Source: Ulva prolifera (Eukaryota > Chlorophyta > Ulvophyceae > Ulvales > Ulvaceae). Taken from it: a DNA stretch of 64,000 nt. A program made the translations under genes and the position numbers. Shown here piece after piece: positions 1,736-64,000 of the stretch; the first letter of the stretch is position 1; each line of letters starts with the position of its first letter. Location: NCBI GenBank assembly GCA_023078555.1, contig CM041197.1, positions 6,159,810-6,223,809 of the forward strand, given 5' to 3'. A model generated the notes under the pieces. That model searched no databases and was not told where the DNA came from. It was given only the letters and a program-made list of their open reading frames with translations.

Positions 1736-2800
1736 GCTGAGGCAGCCACTGGCAAACCTGAGCTGCATATTCATTCATCAACTCACATGTGCAGTGAACT
1801 GTGCAGTTTGAACTCCAGCAGCTCAAGGTTGGGTTTGGTGCTGGCTGCTTGCGGCGCACGTGCATGCTGGTTTCCCGCTTTTGTGAACATGCTGAATTTT
1901 TTGTGAAGGAGCTGAGGCTGCCACTGGCACACCTGAGCTGCAAATCCATTCGGCAACTCACATGTGCAGTGAACTGTGCAGTTTGAACTCCAGCAGCTCA
2001 AGGTTGGGTTTGGTGCTGGCTGCTTGCGGCGCACGTGCATGCTGGTTTCCCGCTTTTGTGAACATGCTGAATTTTTTGTGAAGGAGCTGAGGCAGCCACT
2101 GGCAAACCTGAGCTGCATATTCATTCATCAACTCACATGTGCAGTGAACTGTGCAGTTTGAACTCCAGCAGCTCAAGGTTGGGTTTGGTGCAGGCTGCTT
2201 GCGGCGCACGTGCATGCTGGTTTCCCGCTTCTGTGTACATGCTGATTTTTTTGTGAAGGAGCTGAGGCTGCCACTGGCACACCTGAGCTGCAAATCCATT
2301 CGGCAACTCACATGTGCAGTGAACTGTGCAGTTTGAGCTCCATCAGCCCAAGGCTGGGTTTGGTGCTGGCTGCATACGTCGCACGTGCATGCTGGTTTCC
2401 CGCTTCTGTGAGCATGCTGAATTTTTTGTGAAGGAGCTGAGGCTGCCACTGGCACACCTGAGCTGCAAATCCATTCGGCAACTCACATGTGCAGTGAACT
2501 GTGCAGTTTGAACTCCAGCAGCTCAAGGTTGGGTTTGGTGCTGGCTGCTTGCGGCGCACGTGCATGCTGGTTTCCCGCTTCTGTGTACATGCTGAATTTT
2601 TTGTGAAGGAGCTGAGGCTACCACTGGCACACCTGAGCTGCAAATCCATTCGGCAACTCACATGTGCAGTGAACTGTGCAGTTTAAGCTCCAGCAGCCCA
2701 AGGCTGGGTATGGTGCTGGCTGCATACGTCGCACGTGCATGCTGGTTTCCCGCTTCTGTGAGCATGCTGATTTTTTTGTGAAGGAGCTGAGGCTGCCACT

Positions 2801-4535
2801 GGCACACCTGAGCTGCAAATCCATTCGGCAACTCACATGTGCAGTGAACTGTGCAGTTTGAGCTCCATCAGCCCAAGGCTGGGTTTGGTGCTGGCTGCAT
2901 ACGTCGCACGTGCATGCTGGTTTCCCGCTTCTGTGAGCATGCTGAATTTTTTGTGAAGGAGCTGAGGCTGCCACTGGCACACCTGAGCTGCAAATCCATT
3001 CGGCAACTCACATGTGCAGTGAACTGTGCAGTTTGAACTCCAGCAGCTCAAGGTTGGGTTTGGTGCTGGCTGCTTGCGGCGCACGTGCATGCTGGTTTCC
3101 CGCTTCTGTGTACATGCTGAATTTTTTGTGAAGGAGCTGAGGCTGCCACTGGCACACCTGAGCTGCAAATCCATTCGGCAACTCACATGTGCAGTGAACT
3201 GTGCAGTTTAAGCTCCAGCAGCCCAAGGCTGGGTTTGGTGCTGGCTGCATACGTCGCACGTGCATGCTGGTTTCCCGCTTCTGTGAGCATGCTGATTTTT
3301 TTGTGAAGGAGCTGAGGCTGCCACTGGCACACCTGAGCTGCAAATCCATTCGGCAACTCACATGTGCAGTGAACTGTGCAGTTTGAGCTCCATCAGCCCA
3401 AGGCTGGGTTTGGTGCTGGCTGCATACGTCGCACGTGCATGCTGGTTTCCCGCTTCTGTGAGCATGCTGATTTTTTTGTGAAGGAGCTGAGGCAGCCACT
3501 GGCACACCTGAGCTGCAAATCCATTCGGCAACTCACATGTGCAGTGAACTGTGCAGTTTAAGCTCCAGCAGCCCAAGGCTGGGTTTGGTGCTGGCTGCAT
3601 ACGTCGCACGTGCATGCTGGTTTCCCGCTTCTGTGAGCATGCTGATTTTTTTGTGAAGGAGCTGAGGCAGCCACTGGCACACCTGAGCTGCAAATCCATT
3701 CATCAACTCACATGTGCAGTGAACTGTGCAGTTTGAGCTCCATCAGCCCAAGGCTGGGTTTGGTGCTGGCTGCATACGTCGCACGTGCATGCTGGTTTCC
3801 CGCTTCTGTGAGCATGCTGAATTTTTTGTGAAGGAGCTGAGGCAGCCACTGGCACACCTGAGCTGCAAATCCATTCGGCAACTCACATGTGCAGTGAACT
3901 GTGCAGTTTAAGCTCCAGCAGCCCAAGGCTGGGTTTGGTGCTGGCTGCATACGTCGCACGTGCATGCTGGTTTCCCGCTTCTGTGAGCATGCTGAATTTT
4001 TTGTGAAGGAGCTGAGGCAGCCACTGGCACACCTGAGCTGCAAATCCATTCGGCAACTCACATGTGCAGTGAACTGTGCAGTTTGAACTCCAGCAGCTCA
4101 AGGTTGGGTTTGGTGCTGGCTGCTTGCGGCGCACGTGCATGCTGGTTTCCCGCTTCTGTGAGCATGCTGAATTTTTTGTGAAGGAGCTGAGGCAGCCACT
4201 GGCACACCTGAGCTGCAAATCCATTCGGCAACTCACATGTGCAGTGAACTGTGCAGTTTGAACTCCAGCAGCTCAAGGTTGGGTTTGGTGCTGGCTGCTT
4301 GCGGCGCACGTGCATGCTGGTTTCCCGCTTCTGTGTACATGCTGAATTTTTTGTGAAGGAGCTGAGGCTGCCACTGGCACACCTGAGCTGCAAATCCATT
4401 CGGCAACTCACATGTGCAGTGAACTGTGCAGTTTAAGCTCCATCAGCCCAAGGCTGGGTTTGGTGCTGGCTGCATACGTCGCACGTGCATGCTGGTTTCC
4501 CGCTTCTGTGAGCATGCTGATTTTTTTGTGAAGGA
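2801..4535. repeat. Higher-order repeat block of the 175-bp satellite, copy 2
   Basis: This is the partner of the block at 1-1735, with monomer order A B C A C A C B B D starting at 2851. A smaller A B C trimer is also duplicated 525 bp upstream (2326-2850 against 2851-3375). A two-monomer shift repeats the rare variant ggcaaacctgagctgcatat at about 1752 and 2102. The array therefore grew by copying blocks of several sizes. Boundaries are approximate. Confidence 0.72.
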
Positions 4536-5659
4536 GCTGAGGCTGCCACTGGCACACCTGAGCTGCAAATCCATTCGGCAACTCACATGTGCAGTGAACT
4601 GTGCAGTTTGAGCTCCATCAGCCCAAGGCTGGGTTTGGTGCTGGCTGCATACGTCGCACGTGCATGCTGGTTTCCCGCTTCTGTGAGCATGCTGAATTTT
4701 TTGTGAAGGAGCTGAGGCAGCCACTGGCACACCTGAGCTGCAAATCCATTCGGCAACTCACATGTGCAGTGAACTGTGCAGTTTAAGCTCCAGCAGCCCA
4801 AGGCTGGGTTTGGTGCTGGCTGCATACGTCGCACGTGCATGCTGGTTTCCCGCTTCTGTGAGCATGCTGAATTTTTTGTGAAGGAGCTGAGGCAGCCACT
4901 GGCACACCTGAGCTGCAAATCCATTCGGCAACTCACATGTGCAGTGAACTGTGCAGTTTAAGCTCCAGCAGCCCAAGGCTGGGTTTGGTGCTGGCTGCAT
5001 ACGTCGCACGTGCATGCTGGTTTCCCGCTTCTGTGAGCATGCTGAATTTTTTGTGAAGGAGCTGAGGCAGCCACTGGCACACCTGAGCTGCAAATCCATT
5101 CGGCAACTCACATGTGCAGTGAACTGTGCAGTTTGAACTCCAGCAGCTCAAGGTTGGGTTTGGTGCTGGCTGCTTGCGGCGCACGTGCATGCTGGTTTCC
5201 CGCTTCTGTGAGCATGCTGAATTTTTTGTGAAGGAGCTGAGGCAGCCACTGGCACACCTGAGCTGCAAATCCATTCGGCAACTCACATGTGCAGTGAACT
5301 GTGCAGTTTGAACTCCAGCAGCTCAAGGTTGGGTTTGGTGCTGGCTGCTTGCGGCGCACGTGCATGCTGGTTTCCCGCTTCTGTGTACATGCTGAATTTT
5401 TTGTGAAGGAGCTGAGGCTGCCACTGGCACACCTGAGCTGCAAATCCATTCGGCAACTCACATGTGCAGTGAACTGTGCAGTTTGAGCTCCATCAGCCCA
5501 AGGCTGGGTTTGGTGCTGGCTGCATACGTCGCACGTGCATGCTGGTTTCCCGCTTCTGTGAGCATGCTGAATTTTTTGTGAAGGAGCTGAGGCAGCCACT
5601 GGCACACCTGAGCTGCAAATCCATTCGGCAACTCACATGTGCAGTGAACTGTGCAGTTT

Positions 5660-7155: not shown

Positions 7156-8625
7156 GGCACGCCAGCAAGCACTCAGTGCAATTGCTGAGGAGCAGCACTG
7201 TTCTGACAGCGGGGGGTGGGTGGTGCGGCGATGCAGCATTCTGTGAAGGCACGCCAGCAAGCACTCAGTGCAATTGCTGAGGAGCAGCACTGTTCTGACA
7301 TCGAGGGGTGGGTGGTGCGGCGATGCAGCATTCTGTGAAGGCACACCAGCAAGCACGCAGTGCAATTGCTGTGGAGCAGCACTGTTCTGACAGCGAGGGG
7401 TGGGTGGTGCGGTGATGCAGAATTCTGTGAAGGCACACCAGCAAGCACTCAGTGCAATTGCTGAGGAGCAGCACTGTTCTGACAGCGAGGGGTGGGTGGT
7501 GCGGTGATGCAGCATTCTGTGAAGGCACGCCAGCAAGCACGCAGTGCAATTGCTGTGGAGCAGCACTGTTCTGACAGCGAGGGGTGGGTGGTGCGGTGAT
7601 GCAGAATTCTGTGAAGGCACACCAGCAAGCACTCAGTGCAATTGCTGAGGAGCAGCACTGTTCTGACAGCGAGGGGTGGGTGGTGCGGTGATGCAGCATT
7701 CTGTGAAGGCACGCCAGCAAGCACGCAGTGCAATTGCTGTGGAGCAGCACTGTTCTGACAGCGAGGGGTGGGTGGTGCGGTGATGCAGCATTCTGTGAAG
7801 GCACGCCAGCAAGCACGCAGTGCAATTGCTGTGGAGCAGCACTGTTCTGACAGCGGGGGGTGGGTGGTGCGGCAATGCAGAATTCTGTGAAGGCACGCCA
7901 GCAAGCACTCAGTGCAATTTCTGTGGAGCAGCACTGTTCTGACAGCGGGGGGTGGGTGGTGCGGCGATGCAGAATTCTGTGAAGGCACGCCAGCAAGCAC
8001 TCAGTGCAATTGCTGTGGAGCAGCACTGTTCTGACAGCGGGGGGTGGGTGGTGCGGCAATGCAGAATTCTGTGAAGGCACGCCAGCAAGCACTCAGTGCA
8101 ATTGCTGTGGAGCAGCACTGTTCTGAAAGCGAGGGGTGGGTGGTGCGGCGATGCAGCATTCTGTGAAGGCACACCAGCAAGCACTCAGTGCAATTTCTGT
8201 GGAGCAGCACTGTTCTGACAGCGAGGGGTGGGTGGTGCGGCGATGCAGCATTCTGTGAAGGCACACCAGCAAGCACGCAGTGCAATTGCTGTGGAGCAGC
8301 ACTGTTCTGAAAGCGAGGGGTGGGTGGTGCGGCGATGCAGCATTCTGTGAAGGCACACCAGCAAGCACTCAGTGCAATTGCTGAGGAGCAGCACTGTTCT
8401 GACAGCGGGGGGTGGGTGGTGCGGGGATGCAGAATTCTGTGAAGGCACGCCAGCAAGCACTCAGTGCAATTGCTGAGGAGCAGCACTGTTCTGACAGCGG
8501 GGGGTGGGTGGTGCGGCGATGCAGCATTCTGTGAAGGCACGCCAGCAAGCACGCAGTGCAATTGCTGTGGAGCAGCACTGTTCTGACAGTGAGGGGTGGG
8601 TGGTGCGGCGATGCAGCATTCTGTG
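7156..8625. repeat. 92-bp minisatellite array, 16 copies
   Basis: The unit begins ggcacgccagcaagcactca and ends attctgtgaa. It starts at 7156, 7248, 7340 and so on to 8536, with the last copy about 2 bp short before unrelated sequence at 8626. Spacing is exactly 92 bp throughout. Copies differ at about seven recurrent positions, for example cactcag/cacgcag, ttgctg/tttctg, gcatt/gaatt and gcggcg/gcggtg. Copies 3-4 (7340-7523) and 5-6 (7524-7707) match as a 184-bp pair. On the - strand many copies lack stops, giving frames of up to 275 codons. Because 92 is not divisible by three, these read the same unit in all three phases, with stops appearing or vanishing with the cactcag/cacgcag variant. 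I therefore treat them as non-coding. Confidence 0.96.
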
Positions 8626-43900: not shown

Positions 43901-46900
43901 CAATGTGTGTCAGATGGATAATTTTCATTGACCTCGTGCCCGCGTGCATTCCTACTAGTGTGTAGACCACGATCTTCAAAAACTGTGTACTTTCGAAGCT
44001 AGCAGGCATGGGAGTACGTTTACATTGGCGCGCTCATTTCTTCATGTTGTATACATAAAAATCCTGTTAATGTGTGTCCGATATACTGATTAACATTGAG
44101 CCCATGCCCGCGTGCATAATAAATGGTGTGTAGACCACAATCTTCAAAAACTGTGTACTTTCGAAGCTGGCAGGCATGGGAGTACGTTTACACTGGAGCG
44201 CTCATTTCTTCATGTTGTATACATAAATATCCCGTTATTGTGTGTCAGATATACTGATTTACATTGAGCCCATGCCTGCTTGCATTCTAGCTGTTGTGTA
44301 GTCCACGTTCTTCAAAAACTGTGTACTTTCGGAGAAGACATGCATGGGAGGGCCTTTACACACCGCGCTCATTTCTTCATGTTGTATACATACACATCAT
44401 GCCAATGTGTGTCAGATGGCTAATTTTCATTGACCTCGTGCCCGCGTGCATTCCTGCTAGTGTGTAGACCACGATCTTCAAAAAATGTGTACTTTCGAAG
44501 CTAGCAGGCATGGGAGTACGTTTACATTGGCGCGCTCATTTCTTCATGTTGTATACATAAAAATCCTGTTAATGTGTGTCCGATATACTGATTAACATTG
44601 AGCCCATGCCTGTTTGCATTCTAGCTGTTGTGTAGTCCACGTTCTTCAAAAACTGTGTACTTTCGGAGAAGACATGCATGGGAGGGCCTTTACACACCGC
44701 GCTCATTTCTTCATGTTGTATACATACATATCATGCCAATGTGTGTCAGATGGATAATTTTCATTGACCTCGTGCCCGCGTGCATTCCTGCTAGTGTGTA
44801 GACCACGATCTTCAAAAACTGTGTACTTTCGAAGCTGGCAGGCATGGGAGTACGTTTACATTGGCGCACTCATTTCTTCATGTTGTATACATAAATATCC
44901 TGTTAATGTGTGTCAGATATACTGATTTACATTGAGCCCATGCCTGTTTGTATTCTAGCTGTTGTGTAGTCCACGTTCTTCAAAAACTGTGTACTTTCGG
45001 AGAAGACATGCATGGGAGGGCCTTTACACACCGCGCTCATTTCTTCATGTTGTATACATACACATCATGCCAATGTGTGTCAGATGGATAATTTTCATTG
45101 ACCTCGTGCCCGCGTGCATTCCTGCTAGTGTGTAGACCACGATCTTCAAAAAATGTGTACTTTCGAAGCTAGCAGGCATGGGAGTACGTTTACATTGGTG
45201 CGCTCATTTCTTCATGTTGTATACATAAATATCCTGTTAATGTGTGTCCGATATACTGATTAACATTGAGCCCATGCCCGCGTGCATAATAAATGGTGTG
45301 TAGACCACAATCTTCAAAAATTGTGTACTTTCGAAGCTGGATGGCATGGGAGTACGTTTACACTGGCGCGCTCATTTCTTCATGTTTTATACATAAATAT
45401 CCTGTTATTGTGTGTCAGATATACTGATTTACATTGAGCCCATGCCTGCTTGCATTCTAGCTGTTGTGTAGTCCACGTTCTTCAAAAACGGTGTACTTTC
45501 GGAGAAGACATGCATGGGAGGGCCTTTACACACCGCGCTCATTTCTTCATGTTGTATACATAAATATCCTGTTAATGTGTGTCCGATATACTGATTAAAA
45601 TTGAGCCCATGCCCGCGTGCATAATAAATGGTGTGTAGACCACGATCTTCAAAAACTGTGTACTTTCGAAGCTGGCAGGCATGGGAGTACGTTTACATTG
45701 GCGCACTCATTTCTTCATGTTGTATACATAAATATCCTGTTAATGTGCGTCAGATATACTGATTTGCATTGAGCCCATGCCTGCTTGCATTCTAGCTGTT
45801 GTGTAGTCCACGTTCTTCAAAAACTGTGTACTTTCGGAGAAGACATGCATGGGAGGGCCTTTACACACCGCGCTCATTTCTTCATGTTGTATACATACAT
45901 ATCATGCCAATGTGTGTCAGATGGATAATTTTCATTGACCTCGTGCCCGCGTGCATTCCTGCTAGTGTGTAGACCACGATCTTCAAAAACTGTGTACTTT
46001 CGAAGCTGGCAGGCATGGGAGTACGTTTACATTGGCGCACTCATTTCTTCATGTTGTATACATAAATATCCTGTTAATGTGTGTCAGATATACTGATTTA
46101 CATTGAGCCCATGCCTGTTTGCATTCTAGCTGTTGTGTAGTCCACGTTCTTCAAAAACTGTGTACTTTCGGAGAAGACATGCATGGGAGGGCCTTTACAC
46201 ACCGCGCTCATTTCTTCATGTTGTATACATACATATCATGCCAATGTGTGTCCGATGGAAAATTTTCATTGACCTCGTGCCCGCGTGCATTCCTACTAGT
46301 GTGTAGACCACGTTCTGCGAAAACTTTGTACTTTCGAAGCAGGCAGGCCTGGGAGTACCTTTACATCGACGCGCTCATTTCTACATGTTGTATACATACA
46401 TATAATGTTAATGTGTGTCAGATATACTGATTTACATTGAGCCCATGCCTGCTTGCATTCTAGCTGTTGTGTAGTCCACGTTCTTCAAAAACTGTGTACT
46501 TTCGGAGAAGACATGCATGGGAGGGCCTTTACACACCGCGCTCATTTCTTCATGTTGTATACATACATACCATGCCAATGTGTGTCAGATGGATAATTTT
46601 CATTGACCTCGTGCCCGCGTGCATTCCTACTAGTGTGTAGACCACGATCTTCAAAAACTGTGTACTTTCGAAGCTAGCAGGCATGGGAGTACGTTTACAT
46701 TGGCGCGCTCATTTCTTCATGTTGTATACATAAAAATCCTGTTAATGTGTGTCCGATATACTGATTAACATTGAGCCCATGCCCGCGTGCATAATAAATG
46801 GTGTGTAGACCACAATCTTCAAAAACTGTGTACTTTCGAAGCTGGCAGGCATGGGAGTACGTTTACACTGGAGCGCTCATTTCTTCATGTTGTATACATA

Positions 46901-48348
46901 AATATCCTGTTATTGTGTGTCAGATATACTGATTTACATTGAGCCCATGCCTGCTTGCATTCTAGCTGTTGTGTAGTCCACGTTCTTCAAAAACTGTGTA
47001 CTTTCGGAGAAGACATGCATGGGAGGGCCTTTACACACCGCGCTCATTTCTTCATGTTGTATACATACACATCATGCCAATGTGTGTCAGATGGCTAATT
47101 TTCATTGACCTCGTGCCCGCGTGCATTCCTGCTAGTGTGTAGACCACGATCTTCAAAAAATGTGTACTTTCGAAGCTAGCAGGCATGGGAGAACGTTTAC
47201 ATTGGCGCGCTCATTTCTTCATGTTGTATACATAAAAATCCTGTTAATGTGTGTCCGATATACTGATTAACATTGAGCCCATGCCTGTTTGCATTCTAGC
47301 TGTTGTGTAGTCCACGTTCTTCAAAAACTGTGTACTTTCGGAGAAGACATGCATGGGAGGGCCTTTACACACCGCGCTCATTTCTTCATGTTGTATACAT
47401 ACATATCATGCCAATGTGTGTCCGATGGAAAATTTTCATTGACCTCGTGCCCGCGTGCATTCCTACTAGTGTGTAGACCACGTTCTGCGAAAACTTTGTA
47501 CTTTCGAAGCAGGCAGGCCTGGGAGTACCTTTACATCGACGCGCTCATTTCTACATGTTGTATACATACATATAATGTTAATGTGTGTCAGATATACTGA
47601 TTTACATTGAGCCCATGCCTGCTTGCATTCTAGCTGTTGTGTAGTCCACGTTCTTCAAAAACTGTGTACTTTCGGAGAAGACATGCATGGGAGGGCCTTT
47701 ACACACCGCGCTCATTTCTTCATGTTGTATACATACATACCATGCCAATGTGTGTCAGATGGATAATTTTCATTGACCTCGTGCCCGCGTGCATTCCTAC
47801 TAGTGTGTAGACCACGATCTTCAAAAACTGTGTACTTTCGAAGCTAGCAGGCATGGGAGTACGTTTACATTGGCGCGCTCATTTCTTCATGTTGTATACA
47901 TAAAAATCCTGTTAATGTGTGTCCGATATACTGATTAACATTGAGCCCATGCCCGCGTGCATAATAAATGGTGTGTAGACCACGATCTTCAAAAACTGTG
48001 TACTTTCGAAGCAGGCAGGCCTGGGAGTACCTTTACATCGACGCGCTCATTTCTACATGTTGTATACATACATATAATGTTAATGTGTGTCAGATATACT
48101 GATTTACATTGAGCTCATGCCTGCTTGCATTCTAGCTGTTGTGTAGTCCACGTTCTTCAAAAACTCTGTACTTTCGGAGAAGACATGCATGGGAGGGCCT
48201 TTACACACCGCGCTCATTTCTTCATGTTGTATACATACACATCATGCCAATGTGTGTCAGATGGATAATTTTCATTGACCTCGTGCCCGCGTGCATTCCT
48301 GCTAGTGTGTAGACCACGATCTTCAAAAAATGTGTACTTTCGAAGCTA

Positions 48349-48361
48349 CAGAGTGCTCGAA
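48349..48361. other. 13-bp linker between satellite and telomeric tract
   Basis: The sequence cagagtgctcgaa belongs neither to the satellite, which stops inside a monomer at cgaagcta, nor to the TTAGGGG tract. It is the only sequence between them and marks a junction formed by breakage or end healing. Confidence 0.6.
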
Positions 48362-48855
48362 GGGGTTAGGGGTTAGGGGTTAGGGGTTAGGGGTTAGGGG
48401 TTAGGGGTTAGGGGTTAGGGGTTAGGGGGGTTAGGGGTAGGGGTTTAGGGGTGGGTTAGGGGTTAGGGGTTAGGGGTTAGGGGTTAGGGGTTAGGGGTTG
48501 AGGGTTGGGGTTAGGGGTTAGGGGTTAGGGGTTAGGGGTTAGGGGTTAGGGGTTAGGGGTTAGGGGTTAGGGGTTTGGGGTTACGGGGTTCGGGGTTATG
48601 GGTTAGGGGTTCGGGGTTATGGGGTAGGTAGGGGGTAGGGGTTCGGGGTTAGGGGTTATGGGTGGGGTTAGGGGTTAGGGGTTAGGGGTTAGGGGTACGG
48701 GGTTAGGGGTTAAGGGTTCGGGGTTAGGGGTTAGGTAGGGGTTAGGGGTTCGGGGTTGGGTTTAGGGGTAGGGTTTTAGGGGTACGGGGTTAGGGGTTCG
48801 GGGATTAGGGGTTGGGGTTAGGGGTTAGGGGTGGTTAGGGGTTGGGGTTAGTGGT
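48362..48855 (+). repeat. Telomere-type tract, (TTAGGGG)n, about 70 units, partly degenerate
   Basis: About 494 bp are built on the heptamer ttagggg with the G-rich strand on +. The first 60 bp and about 48455-48570 are almost regular. From about 48570 onward variants are frequent (ttcgggg, ttacgggg, ttatggg, ggtaggg, ggtttaggg). G-rich strands run 5' to 3' toward chromosome ends, so the natural end would be on the right. The tract instead meets an N and then unrelated DNA. It is either an interstitial telomeric sequence or a true telomere joined to another contig. Confidence 0.93.
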
Positions 48856-48856
48856 N
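48856..48856. other. Undetermined base (N) at the telomeric tract / island junction
   Basis: This is the only ambiguous base I noticed in the window, and it sits exactly where the telomeric tract ends. An unresolved consensus base at such a change of sequence character suggests a contig join or a low-quality read end. Confidence 0.9.
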
Positions 48857-48857
48857 A

Positions 48858-48885
48858 GCACGTGCACGTGCGCATGCGTGCACGC
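48858..48885. other. 28-bp alternating purine-pyrimidine run, potential Z-DNA
   Basis: Every base from 48858 to 48885 alternates purine and pyrimidine, mostly GC and GT/AC steps, starting two bases after the N. Such runs are known to favour left-handed DNA under negative supercoiling. That it forms here is inference. Confidence 0.55.
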
Positions 48886-49099
48886 CGAACACAACACCAT
48901 GTACATGTCAATTGATGCAACTCACGCCCAGCACGCTCTTGGCGACTCATTGCTGCGTGTCTACAAGTGCACGGGTCGAGTCACGAATGTATCAGTGTCC
49001 ACGAGTAACGAACCATTCGTGACATGCCTGACATTTTGTGACATGCCTCACAAGCCGCACGTCAGAAATCACCATGGACTACGGCCCAGCCCTTGCTGT

Positions 49100-49405
49100 C
49101 CGTCGCCCCCTGTCGGACGCCATACGTATGCGGACCGGATCAGGCAGTCTATGCAAACCTCCGTTCTCCGTCCGTCGGACGGCCAACGGATCCGTGATTT
49201 CCTCCGTTCAACGTCCAATGGAGCTCCGACGGAGAGGCTGAAGGCAACGAGCGTTGCCCTGTGACTCACCGGACGGGAAACGGAACATCCTGCCCACCTC
49301 CGCAACATTGCCCCGATAGTCCGTGCAACCTACTTCCGGCCTCCACCGATTCTCCGAAGGCTCTCCAACTGCCCCTCCGCACACACTACGTCAGCTCTCC
49401 GATTC
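49100..49405. other. Cluster of TCCG/CGGA motifs and short palindromes
   Basis: TCCG or CGGA occurs well over a dozen times in about 300 bp, often as small inverted repeats. Examples are ccgtcc-gtc-ggacgg at 49168-49182, acggatccgt at 49186-49195 and ctccg-a-cggag at 49224-49234. The perfect 10-bp palindrome catacgtatg lies at 49121-49130. Such clustering recalls sub-terminal repeats of DNA transposons or a multi-site protein-binding region, but I see no transposase or terminal repeats. Confidence 0.5.
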
Positions 49406-52400
49406 ACCGTGTCGCCATTCTCCTAGTGTGTGTACTTTCGAAGCAGGCAATCCTGGGAGTACCTTTACATCGACGCACTCATTTCTACATGTTGTATACA
49501 TACATATAATGTTAATATGTGTCGGATATACTGATTTACATTGAGCCCATGCCCGCGTGCATAACAACTGGTGTGTAGATCACGATCTTCAAAAACTGTG
49601 TACTTTCGAAGCAGGCATGCATGAGAGTACGTTTACATTGGCGCGCTCACTTCTACATGTTGTATACATACATATCATGCCAATGTGTGTCAGATGGAAA
49701 AGTTTCATTGACCTCGTGCCCGCGTGCATTCCTACTAGTGTGTAGACCACGTTCTTCGAAAACTGTGTACTTTCGAAGCAGGCAGGCCTGAGAGTACCTT
49801 TACATCGACGCGCTCATTTCTACATGTTGTATACATACATATAATATTTATGTGTGTCAGATATACTGATTTACATTGAGCCCATGCCTGCTTGCATTCT
49901 AGCTGTTGTGTAGTCCACGTTCTTCAAAAACTGTGTACTTTCGGAGAAGACATGCATGGGAGGTCCTTTACACGCCGCGCTCATTTCTTCATGTTGTATA
50001 CATATATATCATGCCAATGTGTGTCAGACGGAAAATTTTCATTGTCCTCGTGCCCGCGTGCATTCCTACTAGTGTGTAGACCACGATCTTCAAAAACTGT
50101 GTACTTTCGAAGCTGGCAGGCATGGGAGTACGTTTACATTGGCGCGCTCACTTCTACATGTTGTATACATACATATCATGCCAATGTGTGTCAGATGGAA
50201 AAGTTTCATTGACCTCGTGCCCGCGTGCATTCCTACTAGTGTGTAGACCACGTTCTTCGAAAACTGTGTACTTTCGAAGCAGGCAGGCCTGGGAGTACCT
50301 TTACATCGACGCGCTCATTTCTACATGTTGTATACATACATATAATATTTATGTGTGTCAGATATACTGATTTACATTGAGCCCATGCCTGCTTGCATTC
50401 TAGCTGTTGTGTAGTCCACATTCTTCAAAAACTGTGTACTTTCGGAGAAGACATGCATGGGAGGGCCTTTACACACCGCGCTCATTTCTTCATGTTGTAT
50501 ACATACATATCATGCCAATGTGTGTCAGATGGAAAATTTTCATTGACCTCGTGCCCGCGTGCATTCCTACTAGTGTGTAGACCACGTTCTGCGAAAACTG
50601 TGTACTTTCGAAGCAGGCAATCCTGGGAGTACCTTTACATCGACGCACTCATTTCTACATGTTGTATACATACATATAATGTTAATATGTGTCGGATATA
50701 CTGATTTACATTGAGCCCATGCCCGCGTGCATAACAACTGGTGTGTAGATCACGATCTTCAAAAACTGTGTACTTTCGAAGCAGGCATGCATGAGAGTAC
50801 GTTTACATTGGCGCGCTCACTTCTACATGTTGTATACATACATATCATGCCAATGTGTGTCAGATGGAAAAGTTTCATTGACCTCGTGCCCGCGTGCATT
50901 CCTACTAGTGTGTAGACCACGTTCTTCGAAAACTGTGTACTTTCGAAGCAGGCAGGCCTGGGAGTACCTTTACATCGACGCGCTCATTTCTACATGTTGT
51001 ATACATACATATAATATTTATGTGTGTCAGATATACTGATTTACATTGAGCCCATGCCTGCTTGCATTCTAGCTGTTGTGTAGTCCACATTCTTCAAAAA
51101 CTGTGTACTTTCGGAGAAGACATGCATGGGAGGGCCTTTACACACCGCGCTCATTTCTTCATGTTGTATACATACATATCATGCCAATGTGTGTCAGATG
51201 GAAAATTTTCATTGACCTCGTGCCCGCGTGCATTCCTACTAGTGTATAGACCACGTTCTTCGAAAACTGTGTACTTTCGAAGCAGGCAGGCCTGGGAGTA
51301 CCTTTACATCGACGCGCTCATTTCTACATGTTGTATACATACATATAATGTTAATATGTGTCGGATATACTGATTTACATTGAGCCCATGCCCGCGTGCA
51401 TAACAACTGGTGTGTAGATCACGATCTTCAAAAACTGTGTACTTTCGAAGCAGGCATGCATGAGAGTACGTTTACATTGGCGCGCTCACTTCTACATGTT
51501 GTATACATACATATCATGCCAATGTGTGTCAGATGGAAAAGTTTCATTGACCTCGTGCCCGCGTGCATTCCTACTAGTGTGTAGACCACGTTCTTCGAAA
51601 ACTGTGTACTTTCGAAGCAGGCAGGCCTGGGAGTACCTTTACATCGACGCGCTCATTTCTACATGTTGTATACATACATATAATGTTAATGTGTGTCGGA
51701 TATACTGATTTACATTGAGCCTATGCCCGCGTGCATAACAACTGGTGTGTAGATCACGATCTTCAAAAACTGTGTACTTTCGAAGCAGGCATGCATGGGA
51801 GTACGTTTACATTGGCGCGCTCACTTCTTCATGTTGTATACATACATATCATGCCAATGGGTGTCAGATGGAAATTTTTCTTGGACCTCGTGCCCGCGTG
51901 CATTCCTACTAGTGTGTAGACCACATTCTTCGAAAACTGTGTACTTTCGAAGCAGGCAGGCCTGGGAGTACCTTTACATCGACGCGCTCATTTCTACATG
52001 TTGTATACATACATATAATGTTAATGTGTGTCAGATATACTGATTTACATTGAGCCCATGCCTGCTTGCATTCTAGCTGTTGTGTAGTCCACGTTCTTCA
52101 AAAACTGTGTACTTTCGGAGAAGACATGCATGGGAGGTCCTTTACACGCCGCGCTCATTTCTTCATGTTGTATACATACATATCATGCCAATGTGTGTCA
52201 GATGGAAAATTTTCATTGTCCTCGTGCCCGCGTGCATTCCTACTAGTGTGTAGACCACGTTCTGCGAAAACTGTGTACTTTCGAAGCAGGCAGGCATGGG
52301 AGTACGTTTACATTGGCGCGCTCACTTCTACATGTTGTATACATACATATCATGCCAATGTGTGTCAGATATACTGATTTACATTGAGCCCATGCCTGCT

Positions 52401-54404
52401 TGCATTCTAGCTGTTGTGTAGTCCACATTCTTCAAAAACTGTGTACTTTCGGAGAAGACATGCATGGGAGGGCCTTTACACACCGCGCTCATTTCTTCAT
52501 GTTGTATACATACATATCATGCCAATGTGTGTCAGATGGAAAATTTTCATTGACCTCGTGCCCGCGTGCATTCCTACTAGTGTGTAGACCACGTTCTGCG
52601 AAAACTGTGTACTTTCGAAGCAGGCAGGCCTGGGAGTACCTTTACATCGACGCGCTCTTTTCTACATGTTGTATACATACATATAATGTTAATGTGTGTC
52701 AGATATACTGATTTACATTGAGCCCATGCCTGCTTGCATTCTAGCTGTTGTGTAGTCCACGTTCTTCAAAAACTGTGTACTTTCGGAGAAGACATGCATG
52801 GGAGGTCCTTTACACGCCGCGCTCATTTCTTCATGTTGTATACATACATATCATGCCAATGTGTGTCAGACGGAAAATTTTCATTGTCCTCGTGCCCGCG
52901 TGCAATCCTACTAGTGTGTAGACCACGATCTTCAAAAACTGTGTACTTTCGAAGCTGGCAGGCATGGGAGTACGTTTACATTGGCGCGCTGACTTCTACA
53001 TGTTGTATACATACATATCATGCCAATGTGTGTCAGATATACTGATTTACATTGAGCCCATGCCTGCTTGCATTCTAGCTGTTGTGTAGTCCACATTCTT
53101 CAAAAACTGTGTACTTTCGGAGAAGACATGCATGGGAGGGCCTTTACACACCGCGCTCATTTCTTCATGTTGTATACATACATATCATGCCAATGTGTGT
53201 CAAATGGGAAAATTTTCATTGACCTCGTGCCCGCGTTCACTCCTACTAGTGTGTAGACCACGTTCTGCGAAAACTGTGTACTTTCGAAGCAGGCAGGCCT
53301 GGGAGTACCTTTACATCGACGCGCTCATTTCTACATGTTGTATACATACATATAATGTTAATGTGTGTCAGATATACTGATTGACATTGAGCCCATGCCT
53401 GCTTGCATTCTAGCTGTTGTGTAGTCCACGTTCTTCAAAAACTGTGTACTTTCGGAGAAGACATGCATGGGAGGTCCTTTACACGCCGCGCTCATTTCTT
53501 CATGTTGTATACATACATATCATGCCAATGTGTGTCAGACGGAAAGTTTTCATTGTCCTCGTGCCCGCGTGCATTCCTACTAGTGTGTAGACCACGATCT
53601 TCAAAAACTGTGTACTTTCGAAGCTGGCAGGCATGGGAGTACGTTTACATTGGCGCGCTCACTTCTACATGTTGTATACATACATATCATGCCAATGTTT
53701 GTCAGATATACTGATTTACATTGAGCCCATGCCTGCTTGCATTCTAGCTGTTGTGTAGTCCACATTCTTCAAAAACTGTGTACTTTCGGAGAAGACATGC
53801 ATGGGAGGTCCTTTACACGCCGCGCTCATTTCTTCATGTTGTATACATACATATCATGCCAATGTGTGTCAGACGGAAAATTTTCATTGTCCTCGTGCCC
53901 GCGTGCATTCCTACTATTGTGTAGACCACGATCTTCAAAAACTGTGTACTTTCGAAGCTGGCAGGCATGGGAGTACGTTTACATTGGCGCGCTCACTTCT
54001 ACATGTTGTATACATACATATCATGCCAATGTGTGTCAGATATACTGATTTACATTGAGCCCATGCCTGCTTGCATTCTAGCTGTTGTGTAGTCCACATT
54101 CTTCAAAAACTGTGTACTTTCGGAGAAGACATGCATGGGAGGGCCTTTACACACCGCGCTCATTTCTTCATGTTGTATACATACATATCATGCCAATGTG
54201 TGTCAGATGGAAAATTTTCATTGACCTCGTGCCCGCGTGCATTCCTACTAGTGTGTAGACCACGTTCTGCGAAAACTGTGTACTTTCGAAGCAGGCAGGC
54301 CTGGGAGTACCTTTACATCGACGCGCTCATTTCTACATGTTGTATACATACATATAATGTTAATGTGTGTCAGATATACTGATTTACATTGAGCCCATGC
54401 CTGC

Positions 54405-55407
54405 TTGCATTCTAGCTGTTGTGTAGTCCACGTTCTTCAAAAACTGTGTACTTTCGGAGAAGACATGCATGGGAGGTCCTTTACACGCCGCGCTCATTTC
54501 TTCATGTTGTATACATACATATCATGCCAATGTGTGTCAAATGGGAAAATTTTCATTGACCTCGTGCCCGCGTTCATTCCTACTAGTGTGTAGACCACGT
54601 TCTGCGAAAACTGTGTACTTTCGAAGCAGGCAGGCCTGGGAGTACCTTTACATCGACGCGCTCATTTCTACATGTTGTATACATACATATAATGTTAATG
54701 TGTGTCAGATATACTGATTTACATTGAGCCCATGCCTGCTTGCATTCTAGCTGTTGTGTAGTCCACATTCTTCAAAAACTGTGTACTTTCGGAGAAGACA
54801 TGCATGGGAGGTCCTTTACACGCCGCGCTCATTTCTTCATGTTGTATACATACATATCATGCCAATGTGTGTCAGACGGAAAATTTTCATTGTCCTCGTG
54901 CCCGCGTGCATTCCTACTAGTGTGTAGACCACGATCTTCAAAAACTGTGTACTTTCGAAGCTGGCAGGCATGGGAGTACGTTTACATTGGCGCGCTCACT
55001 TCTACATGTTGTATACATACATATCATGCCAATGTGTGTCAGATATACTGATTTACATTGAGCCCATGCCTGCTTGCATTCTAGCTGTTGTGTAGTCCAC
55101 ATTCTTCAAAAACTGTGTACTTTCGGAGAAGACATGCATGGGAGGGCCTTTACACACCGCGCTCATTTCTTCATGTCGTATACATACATATCATGCCAAT
55201 GTGTGTCAGATGGAAAATTTTCATTGACCTCGTGCCCGCGTGCATTCCTACTAGTGTGTAGACCACGTTCTGCGAAAACTGTGTACTTTCGAAGCAGGCA
55301 GGCCTGGGAGTACCTTTACATCGACGCGCTCATTTCTACATGTTGTATACATACATATAATGTTAATGTGTGTCAGATATACTGATTTACATTGAGCCCA
55401 TGCATGC
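54405..55407. repeat. 1,003-bp six-monomer higher-order unit, copy 1
   Basis: This hexamer carries a one-base insertion relative to the family consensus, in gtcaaatgggaaaat, together with cgttcattcc. Near-identical hexamers occur at 55742-56744 and 56745-57747. A single dimer (55408-55741) separates copies 1 and 2, and a close copy of that dimer follows copy 3 (57748-58081). Confidence 0.78.
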
Positions 55408-55741
55408 TTGCATTCTAGCTGTTGTGTAGTCCACGTTCTTCAAAAACTGTGTACTTTCGGAGAAGACATGCATGGGAGGTCCTTTACACGCCGCGCTCAT
55501 TTCTTCATGTTGTATACATACATATCATGCCAATGTGTGTCAGATGGAAAATTTTCATTGTCCTCGTGCCCGCGTGCATTCCTACTAGTGTGTAGACCAC
55601 GTTCTTCGAAAACTGTGTACTTTCGAAGCAGGCAGGCCTGGGAGTACCTTTACATCGACGCGCTCATTTCTACATGTTGTATACATACATATAATGTTAA
55701 TGTGTGTCAGATATACTGATTTACATTGAGCCCATGCCTGC

Positions 55742-56744
55742 TTGCATTCTAGCTGTTGTGTAGTCCACGTTCTTCAAAAACTGTGTACTTTCGGAGAAGA
55801 CATGCATGGGAGGTCCTTTACACGCCGCGCTCATTTCTTCATGTTGTATACATACATATCATGCCAATGTGTGTCAAATGGGAAAATTTTCATTGACCTC
55901 GTGCCCGCGTTCATTCCTACTAGTGTGTAGACCACGTTCTGCGAAAACTGTGTACTTTCGAAGCAGGCAGGCCTGGGAGTACCTTTACATCGACGCGCTC
56001 ATTTCTACATGTTGTATACATACATATAATGTTAATGTGTGTCAGATATACTGATTTACATTGAGCCCATGCCTGCTTGCATTCTAGCTGTTGTGTAGTC
56101 CACATTCTTCAAAAACTGTGTACTTTCGGAGAAGACATGCATGGGAGGTCCTTTACACGCCGCGCTCATTTCTTCATGTTGTATACATACATATCATGCC
56201 AATGTGTGTCAGACGGAAAATTTTCATTGTCCTCGTGCCCGCGTGCATTCCTACTAGTGTGTAGACCACGATCTTCAAAAACTGTGTACTTTCGAAGCTG
56301 GCAGGCATGGGAGTACGTTTACATTGGCGCGCTCACTTCTACATGTTGTATACATACATATCATGCCAATGTGTGTCAGATATACTGATTTACATTGAGC
56401 CCATGCCTGCTTGCATTCTAGCTGTTGTGTAGTCCACATTCTTCAAAAACTGTGTACTTTCGGAGAAGACATGCATGGGAGGGCCTTTACACACCGCGCT
56501 CATTTCTTCATGTTGTATACATACATATCATGCCAATGTGTGTCAGATGGAAAATTTTCATTGACCTCGTGCCCGCGTGCATTCCTACTAGTGTGTAGAC
56601 CACGTTCTGCGAAAACTGTGTACTTTCGAAGCAGGCAGGCCTGGGAGTACCTTTACATCGACGCGCTCATTTCTACATGTTGTATACATACATATAATGT
56701 TAATGTGTGTCAGATATACTGATTTACATTGAGCCCATGCCTGC
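55742..56744. repeat. 1,003-bp six-monomer higher-order unit, copy 2
   Basis: Same layout as copy 1, including the one-base insertion. It has catgttgtatac where copies 1 and 3 share the private variant catgtcgtatac (near 55176 and 57516), so copies 1 and 3 are closer to each other than to this one. Confidence 0.78.
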
Positions 56745-57747
56745 TTGCATTCTAGCTGTTGTGTAGTCCACGTTCTTCAAAAACTGTGTACTTTCGGAGA
56801 AGACATGCATGGGAGGTCCTTTACACGCCGCGCTCATTTCTTCATGTTGTATACATACATATCATGCCAATGTGTGTCAAATGGGAAAATTTTCATTGAC
56901 CTCGTGCCCGCGTTCATTCCTACTAGTGTGTAGACCACGTTCTGCGAAAACTGTGTACTTTCGAAGCAGGCAGGCCTGGGAGTACCTTTACATCGACGCG
57001 CTCATTTCTACATGTTGTATACATACATATAATGTTAATGTGTGTCAGATATACTGATTTACATTGAGCCCATGCCTGCTTGCATTCTAGCTGTTGTGTA
57101 GTCCACATTCTTCAAAAACTGTGTACTTTCGGAGAAGACATGCATGGGAGGTCCTTTACACGCCGCGCTCATTTCTTCATGTTGTATACATACATATCAT
57201 GCCAATGTGTGTCAGACGGAAAATTTTCATTGTCCTCGTGCCCGCGTGCATTCCTACTAGTGTGTAGACCACGATCTTCAAAAACTGTGTACTTTCGAAG
57301 CTGGCAGGCATGGGAGTACGTTTACATTGGCGCGCTCACTTCTACATGTTGTATACATACATATCATGCCAATGTGTGTCAGATATACTGATTTACATTG
57401 AGCCCATGCCTGCTTGCATTCTAGCTGTTGTGTAGTCCACATTCTTCAAAAACTGTGTACTTTCGGAGAAGACATGCATGGGAGGGCCTTTACACACCGC
57501 GCTCATTTCTTCATGTCGTATACATACATATCATGCCAATGTGTGTCAGATGGAAAATTTTCATTGACCTCGTGCCCGCGTGCATTCCTACTAGTGTGTA
57601 GACCACGTTCTGCGAAAACTGTGTACTTTCGAAGCAGGCAGGCCTGGGAGTACCTTTACATCGACGCGCTCATTTCTACATGTTGTATACATACATATAA
57701 TGTTAATGTGTGTCAGATATACTGATTTACATTGAGCCCATGCCTGC
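56745..57747. repeat. 1,003-bp six-monomer higher-order unit, copy 3
   Basis: Directly abuts copy 2. It shares the catgtcgtatac variant and the following dimer with copy 1, so the pair 54405-55741 and 56745-58081 behaves as a duplicated 1,337-bp eight-monomer unit. Confidence 0.78.
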
Positions 57748-60700
57748 TTGCATTCTAGCTGTTGTGTAGTCCACGTTCTTCAAAAACTGTGTACTTTCGG
57801 AGAAGACATGCATGGGAGGTCCTTTACACGCCGCGCTCATTTCTTCATGTTGTATACATACATATCATGCCAATGTGTGTCAGATGGAAAATTTTCATTG
57901 TCCTCGTGCCCGCGTGCATTCCTACTAGTGTGTAGACCACGTTCTTCGAAAACTGTGTACTTTCGAAGCAGGCAGGCCTGGGAGTACCTTTACATCGACG
58001 CGCTCATTTCTACATGTTGTATACATACATATAATGTTAATGTGTGTCGGATATACTGATTTACATTGAGCCTATGCCCGCGTGCATAACAACTGGTGTG
58101 TAGATCACGATCTTAAAAAAATGTGTACTTTCGAAGCAGGCATGCATGGGAGTACGTTTACATTGGCACGCTCACTTCTTCATGTTGTATACATACATAT
58201 CATGCCAATGGGTGTCAGATGGAAAATTTTTATTGACCTCGTGCCCGCGTGCATTCCTACTAGTGTGTAGACCACGTTCTGCGAAAACTGTGTACTTTCG
58301 AAGCAGGCAAGCCTGGGAGTACCTTTACATCGACGCGCACATTTCTACATGTTGTATACATACATATAATGTTAGTGTGTGTCAGATATACTGATTTACA
58401 TTGAGCCCATGCCTGCTTGCATTCTAGCTGTTGTGTAGTCCACGTTCTTCAAAAACTGTGTACTTTCGGAGAAGACATGCATGGGAGGGCCTTTACACAC
58501 CGCGCTCATTTCTTCATGTTGTATACATACATATCATGTTAATGTGTGTCAGATGGATAATTTTCATTGACCTCGTGCCAGCGTGCATTCCTACTAGTGT
58601 GTAGACCACGATCTTCAAAAACTGTGTACTTTCGAACCTGGCAGGCATGGGAGTACGTTTACATTGGCGCACTCATTTCTTCATGTTGTATACATAAATA
58701 TCCTGTTGATGTGTGTCAGATATACTGATTTACATTGAGCCCATGCCTGCTTGCATTCTAGCTGTTGTGTAGTCCACGTTCTTCAAAGTTTGTGTACTTT
58801 CGGAGAAGACATGCATGGGAGGGCCTTTACACACCGCGCTCATTTCTTCATGTTGTATACATACATATCATGCCAATGTGTGTCAGATGGATAATTTTCA
58901 TTGACCTCGTGCCCGCGTGCATTCCTGCTAGTGTGTAGACCACGATCTTCAAAAAATGTGTACTTTCGAAGCTAGCAGGCATGGGAGTACGTTTACATTG
59001 GCGCGCTCATTTCTTCATGTTGTATACATAAATATTCTGTTATTGTGTGTCAGATATACTGATTTACATTGAGCCCATGCCTGCTTGCATTCTAGCTGTT
59101 GTGTAGTCCACGTTCTTCAAAAACTGTGTACTTTCGGAGAAGACATGCATGGGAGGGCCTTTACACACCGCGCTCATTTCTTCATGTTGTATACATACAT
59201 ATCATGCTAATGTGTGTCAGATGGATAATTTTCATTGACCTCGTGCCCGCGTGCATTCCTGCTAGTGTGTAGACCACGATCTTCAAAAAATGTGTACTTT
59301 CGAAGCTAGCAGGCATGGGAGTACGTTTACATTGGCGCGCTCATTTCTTCATGTTGTATACATAAAAATCCTGTTAATGTGTGTCCGATATACTGATTAA
59401 CATTGAGCCCATGCCCGCGTGCATAATAAATGGTGTGTAGACCACAATCTTCAAAAACTGTGTACTTTCGAAGCTGGCAGGCATGGGCGTACGTTTACAT
59501 TGGCGCGCTCACTTCTACATGTTGTATACATACACATCATGCCAATGTGTGTCAGATATACTGATTTACATTGAGCCCATGCCTGCTTGCATTCTAGCTG
59601 TTGTGTAGTCCACGTTCTTCAAAAACTGTGTACTTTCGGAGAAGACATGCATGGGAGGGCCTTTACACACCGCGCTCATTTCTTCATGTTGTATACATAC
59701 ATATCATGCCAATGTGTGTCCGATGGAAAATTTTCATTGACCTCGTGCCCGCGTGCATTCCTACTAGTGTGTAGACCACGTTCTGCGAAAACTTTGTACT
59801 TTCGAAGCAGGCAGGCCTGGGAGTACCTTTACATCGACGCGCTCATTTCTACATGTTGTATACATACATATAATGTTAATGTGTGCCAGATATACTGATT
59901 TACATTGAGCCCATGCCTGCTTGCATTCTAGCTGTTGTGTAGTCCACGTTCTTCAAAAACTGTGTACTTTCGGAGAAGACATGCATGGGATGGCCTTTAC
60001 ACACCGCGCTCATTTCTTCATGTTGTATACATACATATCATGCCAATGTGTGTCAGATGGATAATTTTCATTGACCTCGTGCCCGCGTGCATTCCTGCTA
60101 GTGTGTAGACCACGATCTTCAAAAAATGTGTACTTTCGAAGCTAGCAGGCATGGGAGTACGTTTACATTGGCGCGCTCATTTCTTCATGTTGTATACATA
60201 AATATCCTGTTAATGTGTGTCCGATATACTGATTAACATTGAGCCCATGCCCGCGTGCATAATAAATGGTGTGTAGACCACAATCTTCAAAAACTGTGTA
60301 CTTTCGAAGCTGGCAGGCATGGGAGTACGTTTACACTGGCGCGCTCATTTCTTCATGTTGTATACATAAATATTCTGTTATTGTGTGTCGGATATACTGA
60401 TTTACATTGAGCCCATGCCTGCTTGCATTCTAGCTGTTGTGTAGTCCACGTTCTTCAAAAACTGTGTACTTTCGGAGAAGACATGCATGGGAGGGCCTTT
60501 ACACACCGCACTCATTTCTACATGTTGTATACATACATATACTGTTAATGTGTGTCAGATATACTGATTTACATTGAGCCCATGCCTGCTTGCATTCTAG
60601 CTGTTGTGTAGTCCACGTTCTTCAAAAACTGTGTACTTTCGGACAAGACATGCATGGGAGGGCCTTTACACACCGCGCTCATTTCTTCATGTTGTATACA

Positions 60701-63700
60701 TACATATCATGCCAATGTGTGTCAGATGGATAATTTTCATTGACCTCGTGCCCGCGTGCATTCCTGCTAGTGTGTAGACCACGATCTTCAAAAAATGTGT
60801 ACTTTCGAAGCTAGCAGGCATGGGAGTACGTTTACATTGGCGCGCTCATTTCTTCATGTTGTATACATAAAAATCCTGTTAATGTGTGTCCGATATACTG
60901 ATTAACATTGAGCCCATGCCCGCGTGCATAATAAATGGTGTGTAGACCACAATCTTCAAAAACTGTGTACTTTCGAAGCTGGCAGGCATGGGAGTACGTT
61001 TACATTGGCGCGCTCATTTCTTCATGTTGTATACATAAATATCCTGTTATTGTGTGTCAGATATACTGATTTACATTGAGCCCATGCCTGCTTGCATTCT
61101 AGCTGTCGTGTAGTCCACGTTCTTCAAAAACTGTGTACTTTCGGAGAAGACATGCATGGGAGGGCCTTTACACACCGCGCTCATTTCTTCATGTTGTATA
61201 CATACATATCATGCCAATGTGTGTCAGATGGATAATTGTCATTGACCTCGTGCCCGCGTGCATTCCTGCTAGTGTGTAGACCACGATCTTCAAAAAATGT
61301 GTACTTTCGAAGCTAGCAGGCATGGGAGTACGTTTACATTGGCGCGCTCATTTCTTCATGTTGTATACATAAATATCCTGTTAATGTGTGTCCGATATAC
61401 TGATTAACATTGAGCCCATGCCCGCGTGCATAATAAATGGTGTGTAGACCACAATCTTCAAAAACTGTGTACTTTCGAAGCTGGCAGCCATGGGAGTACG
61501 TTTACACTGGCGCGCTCATTTCTTCATGTTGTATACATCAATATTCTGTTATTGTGTGTCAGATATACTGATTTACATTGAGCCCATGCCTGCTTGCATT
61601 CTAGCTGTTGTGTAGTCCACGTTCTTCAAAAACTGTGTACTTTCGGAGAAGACATGCATGGGAGGGCCTTTACACACCGCACTCATTTCTACATGTTGTA
61701 TACATACATATACTGTTAATGTGTGTCAGATATACTGATTTACATTGAGCCCATGCCTGCTTGCATTCTAGCTGTTGTGTAATCCACGTTCTTGAAAAAC
61801 TGTGTACTTTCGGAGAAGACATGCATGGGAGGGCCTTTACACACCGCGCTCATTTCTTCATGTTGTATACATACATATCATGCCAATGTGTGTCAGATGG
61901 ATAATTTTCATTGACCTCGTGCCCGCGTGCATTCATGCTAGTGTGTAGACCACGATCTTCAAAAAATGTGTACTTTCGAAGCTAGCAGGCATGGGAGTAC
62001 GTTTACATTGGCGCGCTCATTTCTTCATGTTGTATACATAAAAATCCTGTTAATGTGTGTCCGATATACTGATTAACATTGAGCCCATGCCCGCGTGCAT
62101 AATAAATGGTGTGTAGACCACAATCTTCAAAAAATGTGTACTTTCGAAGCTGGCAGGCATGGGAGTACGTTTACACTGGCGCGCTCATTTCTTCATGTTG
62201 TATACATAAATATACTGTTATTGTGTGTCAGATATACTGATTTACATTGAGCCCATGCCTGCTTGCATTCTAGCTGTTGTGTAGTCCACGTTCTTCAAAA
62301 ATTGTGTACTTTCGGAGAAGACATGCATGGGTGGTCCTTTACACGCCGCGCTCATTTCTTCATGTTGTATACATACATATCATGCCAATGGGTGTCAGAT
62401 GGAAAATTTTCATTGACCTCGTGCCCGCGTGCATTCCTACTAGTGTGTAGACCACGTTCTGCGAAAACTGTGTACTTTCGAAGCAGGCAGGCCTGGGAGT
62501 ACCTTTACATCGACGCGCTCATTTCTACATGTTGTATACATACATATAATGTTAATGTGTGTCAGATATACTGATTTACATTGAGCCCATGCCTGCTTGC
62601 ATTCTAGCTGTTGTGTAGTCCACGTTCTTCAAAAACTGTGTACTTTCGGAGAAGACATGCATGGGAGGGCCTTTACACACCGCGCTCATTTCTTCATGTT
62701 GTATACATACATATCATGGCAATGTGTGTCAGATGGATAATTTTCATTGACCTCGTGCCCGCGTGCATTCCTACTAGTGTGTAGACCACGATCTTCAAAA
62801 ACTGTGTACTTTCGAAGCTGGCAGGCATGGGAGTACGTTTACATTGGCGCACTCATTTCTACATGTTGTATACATAAATATCCTGTAAATTTGTGTCAGA
62901 TGTACTGATTTACATTTAGCCCATGCCTGCTTGCATTCTAGCTGTTGTGTAGTCCACGTTCTTAAAAAACTGTGTACTTTCGGAGAAGACATGCATGGGA
63001 GGGCCTTTACACACCGCGCTCATTTCTTCATGTTGTATACATACATATCATGCCAATGTGTGTCAGATGGATAATTTTCATTGACCTCGTGCCCGCGTGC
63101 ATTCCTGCTAGTGTGTAGACCACGATCTTCAAAAAATGTGTACTTTCGAAGCTAGCAGGCATGGGAGTACGTTTACATTGGCGCGCTCATTTCTTCATGT
63201 TGTATACATAAAAATCCTGTTATTGTGTGTCAGATATACTGATTTACATTGAGCCCATGCCTGCTTGCATTCTAGCTGTTGTGTAGTCCACGTTCTTCAA
63301 AAACTGTGTACTTTCGGAGAAGACATGCATGGGAGGGCCTTTACACACCGCGCTCATTTCTTCATGTTGTATACATACATATCATGCCAATGTGTGTCAG
63401 ATGGATAATTTTCATTGACCTCGTGCCCGCGTGCATTCCTGCTAGTGTGTAGACCACGATCTTCAAAAAATGTGTACTTTCGAAGCTAGCAGGCATGGGA
63501 GTACGTTTACATTGGCGCGCTCATTTCTTCATGTTGTATACATAAAAATCCTGTTAATGTGTGTCCGATATACTGATTAACATTGAGCCCATGCCCGCGT
63601 GCATAATAAATGGTGTGTAGACCACAATCTTCAAAAACTGTGTACTTTCGAAGCTGGCAGGCATGGGAGTACGTTTACACTGGCGCGCTCATTTCTTCGT

Positions 63701-64000
63701 GTTGTATACATAAATATCCTGTTATTGTGTGTCAGATATACTGATTTACATTGAGCCCATGCCTGCTTGCATTCTAGCTGTTGTGTAGTCCACGTTCTTC
63801 AAAAACTGTGTACTTTCGGAGAAGACATGCATGGGAGGGCCTTTACACACCGCGCTCATTTCTTCATGTTGTATACATACATATCATGCCAATGTGTGTC
63901 AGATGGATAATTTTCATTGACCTCGTGCCCGCGTGCATTCCTGCTAGTGTGTAGACCACGATCTTCAAAAAATGTGTACTTTCGAAGCTAGCAGGCATGG

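Follow-up and report, generated by a model that had tools for sequence, protein, structure and literature searches.

Inverted CACTAG...CTAGTG ends and a 3-bp target duplication are the marks of CACTA transposons. Among scaffolding programs, LINKS is described as padding gaps with N and marking overlapping contigs with a single n, dnaasm-link as inserting one N, and SSPACE-LongRead as merging overlaps and padding gaps with one or more N; LINKS and dnaasm-link are cited here only as examples of the single-N convention. The string TTAGGGG is reported for human variants and within the fungal repeat TTAGGGGG, and TeloBase gives CCCCTAA for one Aspergillus.

The window analyzed here is the 64-kb stretch C2:6159810-6223809 of an 88.9-Mb eukaryotic assembly in 44 contigs, and it contains a long tract of TTAGGGG (Table 1). 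Tandem Repeats Finder returned a period of 7 for the tract (unit AGGGGTT, 71.9 copies, 82% matches). It holds 42 exact TTAGGGG units, nine of them in the longest run, while no exact unit was found on either strand in the rest of the window and the longest run in 200 mononucleotide shuffles was one unit. These results bear out the initial annotation, made from the sequence alone, in its description of a telomere-type tract inside the sequence ending at an N. The junction that it placed at 48855 is the last base of the tract, but the N itself stands one base further right; satellite in the same orientation was correctly noted on both sides, but 572 bp of a transposon lie between the N and the point at which the satellite restarts. 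Between satellite and tract, the linker 14-mer ACAGAGTGCTCGAA has a single occurrence genome-wide, and the linker was rejected on this ground as the 5' end of a mobile element. A linker 20-mer gave four matches outside the window at up to three mismatches, all with three, and a reversed-pattern control likewise gave four.

Table 1. Positions of the features discussed (window numbering unless a contig is named).
Feature	Position	Strand	Remark
Left satellite array	10916-48347	+	167/334-bp period; subtelomeric here, assigned to the chromosome end
Linker at satellite/tract boundary	48349-48362	+	about 14 bp, unique; boundary uncertain by 1-2 bases
Telomere tract (TTAGGGG)n	48361-48855	+	G-rich strand toward the N at right
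Single N	48856 (= C2:6208665)	.	read as a false join
Right-hand 572 bp of ~18-kb CACTA-type transposon	48857-49428	+	ends ...CTAGTG; presumed start of the wrongly attached contig
Right satellite array	49429-64000 and beyond the window	+	transposon insertion target, TGT 3-bp duplication
Intact satellite copy (80-bp empty site)	50562-50641	+	identical to the joined outer flanks
Distant transposon half	C2:6001242-6010895	inverted, minus	~198 kb off, also on C2; terminates in the satellite of the window, at TGT
Long TTAGGGG tracts	C2:5.999, C2:6.208 (window), C2:7.203 (reverse) Mb
Long TTAGGGG tracts	C4:8.020, C4:10.588, C7:6.263 Mb; C12:23 kb

As judged from the sequence features described below, the tract is almost certainly a true chromosome end that the assembly glued to an unrelated inner contig, and hence an assembly error rather than an unusual chromosome. 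At each of the seven long tracts found in the assembly, the 3' end of the G-rich strand abuts N (a single N in four, 100 N in three), and this strand runs 5' to 3' in the direction expected of a chromosome end; the initial annotation had taken the right-pointing G-rich strand to mark such an end. Its argument from the N at the junction likewise extends to the six other tracts. In the 358,342 letters read (overlaps and window included), runs of N were present only at these tracts and in C44, a contig of 11651 bases of which the first 3000, perhaps a withheld stretch, are all N. At the 18 ends of the nine largest scaffolds (C1-C9), by comparison, not one TTAGGGG unit was seen within 3 kb at four starts or 500 bp at fourteen ends. 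A genome-wide 28-mer count was explained by the long tracts and short runs for 397 of 401 forward and 175 of 175 reverse occurrences. The short runs, six in number, consist of four to six perfect units in ordinary sequence without N, and they are possible genuine interstitial telomere repeats, better candidates than the tract in the window. Repeat purity did not fall steadily toward the N: the last quarter was below the first in five of seven tracts, and this mixed result was not relied on as proof of a contig end. The lengths of C11 and C20, exactly 100000 and 200000 bases, suggest that these contigs were cut at round numbers.

The sequence immediately right of the N belongs to a dispersed element. 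From 68 first-look candidate places for the 572 bp, 40 were scored, and besides the window itself these comprised 10 copies at 99-100%, 10 at 89-91% and 19 at 74-79% identity. Among 30 copies inspected, 29 reach the ...CTAGTG end and then pass into unrelated sequence, the remaining one differing in its final bases. The terminal 22 bases have 67 exact copies, from which eight inward-facing pairs spaced 17.6-19.0 kb were chosen by eye. Both ends were read in seven of these pairs; all seven have the terminal inverted repeats CACTAG...CTAGTG, beginning with CACTA, and six of the seven are flanked by a 3-bp target-site duplication. For the window copy taken with the distant half described below, the duplication is TGT. 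The label CACTA-type is taken from the element ends, because no Pfam family was found in four frames from 6 kb of one ~18-kb copy. Within the ~18-kb family the copies fall into identity groups near 99%, 90% and 77% with a right end common to all, and the several near-identical copies suggest recent activity. A tract is present in only two of 30 copies examined with 1.5-kb flanks, those in the window and on C12. At C12:23336-26877 a tract and a single N cut another copy of the transposon, and a copy with the same right flank continues uninterrupted at C9:1496946-1500487; the two show seven differences in 2.9 kb, six of them within 200 bp of the N. C12 resembles a second copy of part of C9 in which a tract and a single N replace the left part of the transposon.

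A probable partner for the truncated copy in the window is present at another place on C2. Since the right flank of this copy starts with TGTGTACTTTCG, the missing left flank was expected to be the same satellite, ending in TGT. A search for left ends with CTGT before the element gave 48 matches at up to two mismatches; of the two exact ones, one lies in unrelated sequence and the other in the satellite of the window, at C2:6010878 on the minus strand (...CCACGTTCTGCGAAAACTGT|CACTAGGAGAATGGCGAC). From this left end ~9.65 kb of transposon extend to C2:6001242, where it meets 100 N behind another telomere tract. In other copies at 97% identity or more, 8.1-8.3 kb separate the position matching C2:6001242 from the right end in six of eight, and about 14 and 19 kb in the remaining two. 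The sum of ~9.65 kb and 8.1-8.3 kb is ~17.8 kb, the usual length of the transposon. When the outer flanks were joined with one TGT, the resulting 80-mer matched the window with no mismatches at 50562 and with one at 58252, as compared with four mismatches at best for the alternative join of tract-side satellite to the right flank. When the joined flanks were aligned at length with the remainder of the window (leading 1.5 kb of the right array masked), the distant flank was not favored (90.5%, as compared to 92.7% for the tract-side flank); the alternatives were not separated, and these alignments were dropped as a discriminator. Of the 944 31-mers in the 1.5-kb satellite stretch flanking the distant half, the right array contains 867 and the left array 381; 486 are private to the right array and none to the left. 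The inverted stretch C2:6001242-6010895 is thus likely the true left neighbor of the right-hand contig.

The initial annotation had left two options, a retained telomere addition and a contig join, and omitted a third that also requires no switch of the G-rich strand, namely a real interstitial telomere produced when an uncapped end fused to a double-strand break in a transposon copy, with only one telomere kept. Such a fusion would fit both the orientation of the tract and the truncated transposon, but it is very improbable given that the other half of the transposon lies on the same scaffold beside 100 N with matching flank and duplication, that an N stands exactly at the junction here as at the six other tracts, and that such a fusion would have to have happened several times independently, each time with an N at its end. 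The tail-to-head join of contigs, which the initial annotation preferred because of the N, gains support from the transposon half, the TGT and the satellite variants found elsewhere.

The satellite on the two sides of the junction bears on the other of those options. Both arrays have a period of about 167/334 bp and one shared orientation by Tandem Repeats Finder, but their variant sets near the join differ. Among the 31-mers of the final 1.5 kb ahead of the tract, 237 recur elsewhere in the left array and not in the right, and none in the right array only. AAGCT comes after all 46 units that end TCAAAAAA, the type nearest the tract, and AAGCAGGCA, the sequence to the right of the transposon, comes after all 29 units that end CGAAAAC. 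Taking all units ending AAAAAA, AAGCT follows in 52 of 53; because AAGCAGGCA follows in the remaining one, the mismatch in unit type between the arrays is strong but not absolute. The first option of the initial annotation, in which telomeric repeats were added where the satellite had broken and then persisted within an unbroken array, would account for the way in which linker and tract start break a satellite unit; it is nevertheless less probable still than a fusion, as the arrays are discontinuous in unit type and private 31-mers and the end of a transposon intervenes between them. Sixteen base pairs of satellite are repeated on both sides of the whole insert, as a target duplication would give. 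Because the unit types on the two sides mismatch, these 16 bp are probably not a target duplication, and two breaks in a ~167-bp unit can by chance leave 16 bp in common. A tract carried by a mobile element, e.g., a retroelement inserted with telomeric RNA and flanked by this 16-bp duplication, would be in keeping with the dispersed element right of the N as well, but has a negligible probability and was dropped in view of the CACTA-type inverted ends with 3-bp duplications, the restriction of tracts to the window and C12 copies among 30, and the differing types of the flanking satellite units.

Several further features of the repeats were observed. Satellite variants are zoned, some being confined to the initial ~2.6 kb of the right array (49429-52000), and the variant ATAAAAATCC is restricted to 44-48 kb and to positions from 58 kb onward (compared were 44000-48347, 49429-52000 and 58000-64000). 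Centromere-proximal to the telomeric satellite, the window contains a 175-bp tandem array at 1-5659 (32 copies) and a 92-bp tandem array at 7156-8625 (16 copies), and the 175-bp repeat is also present, inverted, at C2:6263810. Near C2:6064370 the satellite flips from reverse to forward without an N, for which a real inversion and a contig error are both possible.

Under the preferred reading of a false join, the chromosome end (satellite, then TTAGGGG) would belong with the sequence on the left, and an assembly step at the N would have attached it to an inner contig. That contig would begin in mid-transposon, the assembly having broken in a dispersed element with copies up to 99-100% identical. 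Its true left neighbor would be the inverted stretch starting from C2:6001242, with ~7.6 kb of transposon missing from the join. We infer that scaffolding links derived from the satellite made the join; because links through a common satellite would join contigs in matching orientation, they could also explain the unchanged direction of the satellite. Turning the 207-kb block C2:6001242-6208664 round would, we infer, put both block ends right, with the window telomere against the telomere at C2:6.001 Mb and the transposon halves united. Within the minor part of the block that was read, no N was seen at the satellite turn near C2:6064370, which counts against a block inversion.

TTAGGGG is probably the nuclear telomere repeat of this alga, as the long tracts suggest, with at least seven chromosome ends hidden in scaffolds and with C2 and C4, at least, each combining more than one chromosome. 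A literature search of open-licence papers turned up no TTAGGGG telomere in green algae, and the occurrence of this motif in a green alga is the only potentially novel point. Chlorophyll a/b-type light-harvesting genes are present in the genome (38 matches) and point to an alga with a green plastid; their PDB matches are chlorophyll a-b binding proteins and LHCI chains; the best whole-chain score was obtained with a two-domain LHCI-2 chain (9vfj), and the best single-domain alignment, of two compared, with a one-domain chlorophyll a-b protein. The false join, if accepted, removes a false case of an internal telomere. It also points to an assembly that is chimeric at chromosome scale, with three of the seven long tracts on C2 and two on C4, so that chromosome counts, synteny and fusion histories derived from it would be erroneous at these loci. 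Pairing transposon halves by target duplication and satellite variants yields a specific correction that is testable with reads.

The locus resembles known systems to different degrees. In common with TTAGGG and TTTAGGG telomeres, it has a repeat of T, A and G whose G-rich strand extends to the end, whereas the unit here is seven bases with four G (TTAGGGG). The transposon shares with CACTA (En/Spm) elements the inverted CACTAG...CTAGTG ends and the 3-bp target duplication (6/7) and differs in its large size (17.6-19.0 kb) and in the lack of a Pfam transposase in the four frames scanned (6 kb of one copy). Like interstitial telomeric sequences, the tract lies inside a chromosome-sized scaffold; unlike them, it ends at an N without continuity rightward, and its two sides would not form one continuous chromosome, the right contig pairing instead with the inverted stretch C2:6001242-6010895. 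The likeness to a scaffolding false join extends to all essentials: a gap character marks the junction, with the internal telomere repeats of the scaffold stopping exactly at an N; the right contig starts in a dispersed repeat; and a better-fitting partner, likely its true neighbor, is found at another place.
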